Assembly: GCF_025231485.1 (NCBI RefSeq)
Contig: NZ_CP104003.1
Span: 2,542,001 to 2,606,000 of the forward strand
From: Salinirubellus salinus
Lineage (GTDB): Archaea > Halobacteriota > Halobacteria > Halobacteriales > Haloarculaceae
Reading direction: 5' to 3'
Length of the DNA stretch: 64,000 nt
Shown here in pieces: positions 20,759 through 36,082 of the stretch. The notes beneath the pieces are model-generated. The model did no database searches. It worked only from the letters and a program-made list of their open reading frames with translations, and was not told the origin of the DNA. Position 1 is the stretch's first letter. The number at the start of each line of letters is the position of its first letter. The position numbers and the translations under genes were made by a program.

Positions 20759-21406
20759 ATGTTCACCGGCATCGTCGAGGAGACGGGCGAGGTCGTGCGT
20801 CGCGAGGAGACCGAGGGCGGGTTGCGCCTGCGAGTGCAAGCGTCGTTCGCGGACGAACTCGAGGTCGGGCAGTCCGTGGCGGTGTCGGGGGCCTGCCTCA
20901 CGGTCGAGGACTTCGACAGCGAGACGTTCGAGCTGTTCCTCTCCCGCGAGACCGTCGAGAAGACGTATCTGGGGGAGGTGGCGGTCGGTGACGTCGTCAA
21001 CCTCGAGCGGGCGCTGCCGGCCGACGGTCGGTTCGACGGCCACTTCGTGCAGGGGCACGTCGACGGCACGGCCGAGGTGGTCGACGTGGAGCAGGTGGGG
21101 GACGTCCCCGCGAGCGAAGCGAGCGGGGGCTCGTCGTACGAGCGAAGCGAGTACGACGGTGACTGGACGTTCACCTTCTCGCTGCCCGAGTCGATGGGCC
21201 GCTACGTCGTCCCGAAGGGCTCCATCTGCGTGGACGGCATCTCGCTCACCGTCGCCGACCTCCGGGACGGGGAGTTCGACGTGGCCATCATCCCGGAGAC
21301 CTACCGGCTGACGAACCTCGCGGCGAAGGCGGCTGGCGACCCGGTCCACCTCGAGGTCGACGTGGTGGCGAAGTACGTCGAGTCGCTGACCGAGGGGTAC
21401 CGCTGA
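20759..21406 (+). CDS. ribE: Riboflavin synthase (bacterial-type, alpha chain)
   Basis: 215 residues. It starts with the hallmark MFTGIVEETG and has the two lumazine-binding barrels of the trimeric RibE type, e.g. GACLTVEDF with GHFVQGHVDGTAEV in the first half and CVDGISLTV with IPETYRLTNL in the second. It converts two 6,7-dimethyl-8-ribityllumazine molecules to riboflavin. Haloarchaea are known to use this type rather than the archaeal RibC. A segment at about residues 116-133, rich in Ser, Glu and Gly, looks like an insertion and is encoded by two strong DNA palindromes. Confidence 0.93.
   Translation: MFTGIVEETGEVVRREETEGGLRLRVQASFADELEVGQSVAVSGACLTVEDFDSETFELFLSRETVEKTYLGEVAVGDVVNLERALPADGRFDGHFVQGHVDGTAEVVDVEQVGDVPASEASGGSSYERSEYDGDWTFTFSLPESMGRYVVPKGSICVDGISLTVADLRDGEFDVAIIPETYRLTNLAAKAAGDPVHLEVDVVAKYVESLTEGYR
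21106..21158 (+). repeat. Two GAGCGAAGCGA-loop palindromes inside ribE
   Basis: Palindrome 1 has arms CCCCGC (21106-21111) and GCGGGG (21123-21128). Palindrome 2 has perfect 8-base arms CGTCGTAC (21132-21139) and GTACGACG (21151-21158). Both enclose GAGCGAAGCGA, the same core found in the intergenic palindrome at 35942-35964. They encode an inserted-looking, in-frame loop of riboflavin synthase. Confidence 0.8.
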
Positions 21407-26090: not shown

Positions 26091-26415
26091 GGGTGGCAGA
26101 GGGAGCCCGGCCTCCGCTACACGCGTAGTGAGGAAAGTCCCCCCACCGTCCGGGCGGGCGACTGGGCGCAAGCCCAGAGCGGGAGACCGCTGGCTCTGGA
26201 ACAGAAACGAGACCCCTCGGCGCGAGCGATGAGACCTGCGAACCGAACCGCGAGGTGAGGAAGCTAACCGGTCGAGCGTCGACCGCCGAGAACGGATGGA
26301 ACGGCGAATCCTCGCCGGTGCAAGCCCGCCGCGCTATGGTAGCCCGGACGCTGCGGCGGGTGCTCAGCCGAATGCCGGGCCGAACAGAAGGGGGCTTACT
26401 CCCCTCCAGCCACCA
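26091..26415 (+). ncRNA. rnpB: RNase P RNA (archaeal type A)
   Basis: The catalytic RNA that trims tRNA 5' ends. The universal core GAGGAAAGTCC lies at 26130-26140, and its partner region ACAGAA...GGGGCTTACT at 26384-26400 forms helix P4. The ends GGTGGC (26092-26097) and GCCACC (26409-26414) pair as helix P1, which sets the boundaries. The internal GGTGCAAGCCCGCC-type region is also typical. A composite repeat begins directly after the 3' end. Confidence 0.95.
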
Positions 26416-35876: not shown

Positions 35877-36082
35877 CGACCGGACGGGGACGGGCACGGC
35901 GACCACCCCAGCGGAGTCCACCAGCGTACGCCGAGCGGAGTCCGCACGAGCGAAGCGAGTGCGGGTCGTGCCGGAGCTTGCTCCGGCTGAGCGAGGCGGC
36001 AGGAACGAGGAGCGTTCTTCCCCACGTTCTTGCCTGAGCGCAGCGCTCGCAGAGCGCCGCGCGAAGTGCGAGAGGTGGTGGT
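35877..36082 (-). repeat. Palindrome cluster and diverged composite repeat, copy D
   Basis: Between convergent genes. On the minus strand, right after the DUF5781-like stop, lie a GC hairpin region (GAGCGCTGCGCTC at about 36036-36048) and AAGAACGTGGGGAAGAACGC (36012-36031), close to the linker of copy B after EF-2. Further on are palindromes GCCGGAGC-TT-GCTCCGGC (35970-35987 region) and CCGCAC...GTGCGG around a GAGCGAAGCGA core (35942-35964), the same core as in ribE. No gene is seen here. Confidence 0.65.

Follow-up and report, generated by a model that had tools for sequence, protein, structure and literature searches.

A two-hairpin palindromic insert in the riboflavin synthase gene of Salinirubellus salinus is probably a copy of a small dispersed haloarchaeal element that enters protein genes in frame

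The window, a 64,000-nucleotide stretch of the Salinirubellus salinus genome, contains ribE (20759–21406, + strand), which codes for a riboflavin synthase with two lumazine-binding domains (PF00677, E 2e-47). This gene is the host of a two-hairpin element of 57 bp and 19 codons (21104–21160, +; residues 116–134, VPASEASGGSSYERSEYDG) that is missing in most orthologs and has similar copies elsewhere. The full insert reads GTCCCCGC-GAGCGAAGCGA-GCGGGGGC-T-CGTCGTAC-GAGCGAAGCGA-GTACGACG-GT. Hairpin 1 (GTCCCCGC / GAGCGAAGCGA / GCGGGGGC; 21104–21130, +) contains the inner palindrome CCCCGC-GAGCGAAGCGA-GCGGGG at 21106–21128, and hairpin 2 (CGTCGTAC / GAGCGAAGCGA / GTACGACG) spans 21132–21158 (+). Each is capped by the mini-hairpin loop GA-GC-GAA-GC-GA (21112–21122 and 21140–21150, both +), recognized in both cases by the occurrence of the core and in loop 1 also by the loop rule given below. 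An earlier note, made from the sequence of this stretch, had reported two in-frame palindromes in ribE at 21106–21158, and both were found there. Its starting residue (116) also stands, but the insert is one residue longer than the approximately 18 residues (116–133) it proposed. The predicted fold consists of exactly the two hairpins, with an energy of −17.4 kcal/mol for DNA and −35.2 kcal/mol (z −4.7) for RNA. An Rfam scan found no family at the two-hairpin element. An archaeal RNase P RNA (RF00373, 173 bits) is located elsewhere in the window, at 26095–26411 (+).

Solved riboflavin synthases align over the whole of RibE with a single gap, which falls at the insert. In an AlphaFold model of RibE (mean pLDDT 87), the insert lies between the strands formed by residues 103–113 and 135–141 and has a pLDDT of about 54–71. 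Residues 115–134 form a low-confidence loop in RibE, the one host examined, as expected of the exposed and tolerant positions occupied by Rickettsia palindromic elements (RPEs), and in this model the insert has the look of a flexible linker at the surface. The intact reading frames suggest that it is translated. Most of the 85 ribE genes compared have an insert-free, 31-residue segment (VGDDWTF type) at this position; the earlier note had expected only a short loop in other riboflavin synthases, and most related RibE proteins indeed lack the insert entirely. Homologous inserts occur at the same place in nine of the 85 rows and in L034. The ribE gene of Natrialba taiwanensis (L078) has a 17-residue insert at the same site without hairpin DNA (SEAPRASDEPTDDESGG), which is either a wholly decayed copy of the element or an unrelated insertion.

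The GAGCGAAGCGA core occurs three times in the window, compared with 0.17 expected, and none of 100 shuffles reached three. It was found 47 times in the 4.38 Mb genome. One window copy is a single intergenic hairpin between converging genes (CCGCAC / GAGCGAAGCGA / GTGCGG; 35942–35964, +). The earlier note took this copy to have the same core and form as the ribE palindromes; the loop is the same, but the arms differ and there is only one hairpin, so it is a member of a wider class and not a second two-hairpin copy. Hairpins of this class follow the rule arm-GA-NC-GNA-GN'-GA-arm'. In an unbiased 464 kb loop sample from the same genome, complementary arms of at least 3 bp flanked 14 of the 24 loops in which bases 3 and 9 can pair and none of the 17 in which they cannot (p about 6e-5), so the hairpin form is not due to chance. 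Among 20 stretches taken from as many other genomes, pairing loops had arms of 4 bp or more in 12 cases, and non-pairing loops in none. The arms vary between loci, yet are complementary within each locus, and some stems extend past a further GA/GA step.

The N-C-GNA-G-N' part of this rule, with pairing at positions 3 and 9, gives a GNA triloop closed by at least two base pairs with a closing C-G, which is the form of a GNA mini-hairpin. GNA loops on at least two G-C pairs melt near 78°C and resist nucleases, with GCGAAGC as the prototype (PMC4686876); the stability quoted here is the literature value for GCGAAGC. The loop core of the element includes GC-GAA-GC, as in d(GCGAAGC), but that mini-hairpin is known as a chemical motif, whereas here it forms the tip of a genome-wide repeat. 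The pattern GAACGGAGTGA occurs 1–37 times per haloarchaeal genome and its reversed control 0–2 times; counts in non-haloarchaeal members of the phylum are close to the control. Both these counts and the window count place the motif far above chance, an outcome on which the earlier note had made its reading depend. Single hairpins were intergenic in 10 of 14 cases in the own-genome sample (84% coding), in 17 of 17 in other genomes, and in 14 of 14 in Haloarcula-like stretches. Of the archaea tested, only those of the haloarchaeal order have the hairpin family, and its members lie mostly between genes.

When 392 genomes of the order were searched with the insert, similar sequence turned up far outside ribE, and the two-hairpin element is present in most haloarchaeal genera searched. 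Using a query from a coding copy and two scored hits per genome, 80 copies were classified, with 52 genic and 28 intergenic; genes were called by codon usage. All 52 genic copies share the same strand and the same phase, and they occur in about 29 different hosts. These include RibE, UvrA, UvrC, MutS, Kae1-Bud32, alanyl-tRNA synthetase (AlaRS), TrpG, GlmM, V-type ATPase subunit I, urocanase, HemG, an acyl-CoA ligase, an acyl-CoA dehydrogenase, adenine deaminase, a Hel308-like helicase, MaoC, PilB3, and a PAS-domain protein; family searches of 31 hosts matched a known family in 26. Two TrpG paralogs carry the element in the same loop. The adenine deaminase gene of L294 has two element copies in different places. 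The consensus is stop-free in all six frames, of which the acidic one is in use, so the constant frame cannot be put down to a lack of stops. Selection on the peptide, or insertion in one direction, is the probable cause of the constant frame and strand. A census based on searches and sampled stretches gave 0–3 two-hairpin copies per genome (control 0), unlike a vigorous mobile element. A phage search and an exact scan of viral contigs found no element, and scanning the own genome with a loose pattern returned mostly chance matches. Two-hairpin copies in L338, L343, L350, and L370 are near tRNA-Phe genes, beside an apparent repeat of the tRNA 3' end (GTTCAAATCCGGGAGG), and may be integration remnants.

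Both hairpins show strong compensatory change. Among 36 genic copies, 92.9% of cells are paired compared with 81.5% after shuffling and 33%–41% in slid controls. Pairs with change on both sides number 17 out of 20 (nine of 10 in hairpin 1, eight of 10 in hairpin 2), double-change cells number 73 compared with 17.5 in shuffles, and none of 500 shuffles reached the observed values. We consider it probable that the insert in ribE is one copy of a small palindromic element that is dispersed among haloarchaea and enters protein genes in frame.

Between close relatives, the insert is cleanly present or absent and is the one difference. In ribE there is a 54 bp difference between G092 and Halosimplex carlsbadense, with flanks that are 90%–96% identical, and a 57 bp difference between L046 and L237. 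In uvrA, G612 and G590 differ by 57 bp with 94% identity either side, and 5 out of 100 genomes of that family are carriers; glmM has insert differences of 57 and 48 bp between relatives. In a ribE tree constructed with the insert columns left out, the ten long rows (including L078, whose unlike insert was dropped from the one-clade test) need ten changes of state, and a single clade of the other nine carriers is rejected (p 2e-65). Five uvrA rows need five state changes on a weakly supported tree. An old insertion in an early haloarchaeal ancestor, lost many times with the hairpin easing precise loss by slippage, would be in keeping with the tendency of palindromes to be deleted, with the loss or shortening of the second hairpin in some copies, and with the per-gene subtypes (uvrA inserts are 0.94–1.0 alike over the first 33 bases). 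Within-gene likeness averages 0.88 compared with 0.75 between genes, a difference due mostly to uvrA. Common descent thus accounts for some of the sharing and probably contributes within a gene, above all in uvrA. Ancestral insertion as the source of the inserts is nonetheless improbable, as they are far more alike than their surroundings: ribE inserts are 0.85 identical compared with 0.74 for the 60 bp flanks and 0.68 further away, and the uvrC insert is 0.93 identical between two families compared with 0.67 and 0.73. When the first 33 bases are compared, a ribE insert usually has its closest match in an insert of another gene (kae1, 33 of 33; trpG and maoC, 0.97; uvrA, 0.94). Most of the 85 ribE genes would also need a loss that leaves them with the same length, without the single-D product expected from slippage between GAC codons. 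Haloarchaea swap genes across species, and spread of ribE or uvrA alleles by interspecies homologous recombination would suit the patchy distribution of carriers, but we regard it as highly improbable given that carriers are scattered on a protein tree built without the insert and that the same element is found in about 29 unrelated genes. Carrier flanks of 30–60 bp have no excess likeness over expectation (p 0.17–0.22), and no shared flanking or recombination tract was seen. Because carriers are scattered on the RibE tree and their inserts mostly resemble those of other genes, the same site appears to have been entered repeatedly. The comparison of sequences shows several separate arrivals at the same ribE codon, with the same probably true of the uvrA codon, and in our reading the inserts came repeatedly out of a shared pool to a few tolerated sites.

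Three further explanations concern the structure and the peptide. The strong covariation, the very stable predicted RNA fold (z −4.7), and the many single hairpins in spacers of converging genes could point to a structured RNA or DNA element kept for a function such as mRNA stability, 3' ends, or protein binding, also in genes. This is unlikely in view of single hairpins that are found between diverging genes as well and on no fixed strand, an insert that is missing in most orthologs, and degenerate hairpins in several genic copies. In both the own-genome and other-genome samples, intergenic hairpins have no fixed gene arrangement and lie between converging, diverging, and co-directed genes alike; a terminator-only role was rejected on this basis. 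Alternatively, a self-priming GCGAAGC tip could allow fold-back copying or template switching to generate the arms on site, giving perfect, variable arms without selection. Arms that differ between loci and are complementary within each would fit this process, and Pol theta is known to carry out snap-back synthesis from short stems (PMC11292364). We think it rather improbable as the origin of the insert, and it cannot alone explain the coding element because ribE, uvrA, and glmM inserts arrive as whole two-hairpin units including both arms, although it may explain arm upkeep. Convergent acidic Ser/Gly linkers combined with codon bias, with no element involved, would draw on high G+C and on the acidic linkers that are common in halophiles; DNA-level identity between unrelated genes, intergenic copies, and reversed-pattern controls near zero leave this with almost no probability, and the pair covariation refutes it. 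Chance and codon bias are ruled out by the pair covariation, the core shuffles, the loop-pairing test, and the reversed-pattern controls.

For the dispersed element that we favor, a more specific model is conceivable and is put forward tentatively: a transposase-free, 57 bp, two-mini-hairpin element that has precisely and repeatedly re-entered the same codon of ribE, and of uvrA, in separate lineages of haloarchaea, and that travels in the form of single-stranded DNA resistant to nucleases. As to the way of movement, we favor the following: the element would spread as folded DNA, with GNA mini-hairpin tips that would resist melting and nucleases, and the folded strand would be captured into GAC/GACGG-rich places by some enzyme or by short-homology repair. 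Survival in genes would be limited to copies that keep the reading frame, use the single acidic forward frame, and fall in a surface loop, where the insert would serve as a near-neutral flexible linker. GACGGC is preferred in the left flank, and GACGGY forms the end of the element; two acidic codons (GAC/GAC) enclose the insert in ribE and glmM. Together, the left GACGGC and right GACGGY mimic a target site duplication, but a copy-by-copy test gave no significant support for one (p 0.08–0.25), and in glmM and ribE the right GACGG is part of the element. A Y1 transposase was rejected as the mobilizer, as its genes do not correlate with carriage: carriers G015 and G612 have no Y1_Tnp match and non-carrier G436 has one. 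If the tentative model is true, a site-preferring, translation-compatible mobile hairpin seeds protein linkers throughout an archaeal class.

Palindromic elements of Rickettsia and Wolbachia are found in frame in many housekeeping genes, in solvent-exposed regions, and also between genes (PMC10969869, PMC3767692, PMC2229807). The likeness to RPEs proposed in the earlier note holds as a likeness of behavior, with the haloarchaeal repeat in frame in unrelated protein genes (52 of 52 genic copies, about 28 host genes in addition to ribE) and polymorphic among close relatives. RPEs are described as about 100–150 bp long with one long stem and 44 integrations in one genome (PMC10969869), and their inserts as occupying the same locus in all Rickettsia orthologs (PMC3767692). 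The haloarchaeal element, in contrast, is 54–57 bp long, has two short hairpins with GNA tips, and occurs at 0–3 two-hairpin copies per genome with scattered presence in archaeal hosts. It works like RPEs and is not itself one, differing in sequence, size, architecture, and copy number from RPEs as they are described.

RAYT-associated REPs are short, mostly intergenic palindromes, some of which are intragenic and in frame, even in uvrA, and REP dimers and grouped repeats encode 20–30 residues (PMC3733652). GTAG/CGTC REPs thus resemble the element in being short palindromes that are sometimes in frame inside genes, including uvrA. The haloarchaeal consensus, however, is without GTAG, has its CGTC in stem 2 paired with GACG, and consists of two same-orientation hairpins with tandem GA and a GNA tip in archaea; its carriage does not follow the presence of Y1 (RAYT/TnpA) transposase genes. 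Unlike MITEs, it shows no significant copy-specific target duplication and no common terminal inverted repeat, its hairpins being internal pairs. PATEs, SMRs, and MITEs of Haloquadratum are also transposase-free small repeats in haloarchaea, according to the text available (PMC3119063). PATEs are described there as IS605-derived units with defined ends, palindromes near the ends, and 52 bp terminal-only forms, and not as in-frame coding inserts (PMC3119063); they are set apart here by description and not base by base. A literature search with the core DNA and the encoded peptide returned no description of the element and only unrelated matches (a mouse protein for the peptide). In the portions of the literature consulted, in-frame coding palindromes are so far mainly from Rickettsia, Wolbachia, and a few REP-rich bacteria, with none described in archaea. 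Because the inserts are polymorphic in close relatives, occur in many essential genes, and appear to have arrived repeatedly at the same site, their gain, loss, and fitness cost should be directly measurable, and haloarchaea are tractable hosts for doing so. The element would also give a concrete handle on how proteins acquire ready-made linkers, and it represents a laboratory DNA motif, the GNA mini-hairpin, employed genome-wide in nature.

Related hairpins also occur in other arrangements. In the own genome, about a dozen core copies (L001, L005, L007, L010, L011, L015, L016, L022, and L026) are in a longer intergenic block with the order CACCCACC, hairpin, CCTTTTTCAYCRACGTTTTTGCGCGAG, and a second hairpin with arms GGTTCGC or GGTGCGC. 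With its T tracts, this block has the appearance of a repeat family of its own. Haloarcula-like genomes L231–L249 have an ~63 bp repeat unit in the spacer after a GTPase gene, with two hairpins, one of which has a GACCANCGGGA loop, and tandem copy number differs among close species. At L173 11130–11210 (own genome C1 2511135–2511203), the GAACGGAGTGA loop is present twice between outer arms CGTGGTC / GACCACG, and a further hairpin separates the two copies, as if an insertion of DNA into the loop had duplicated it.
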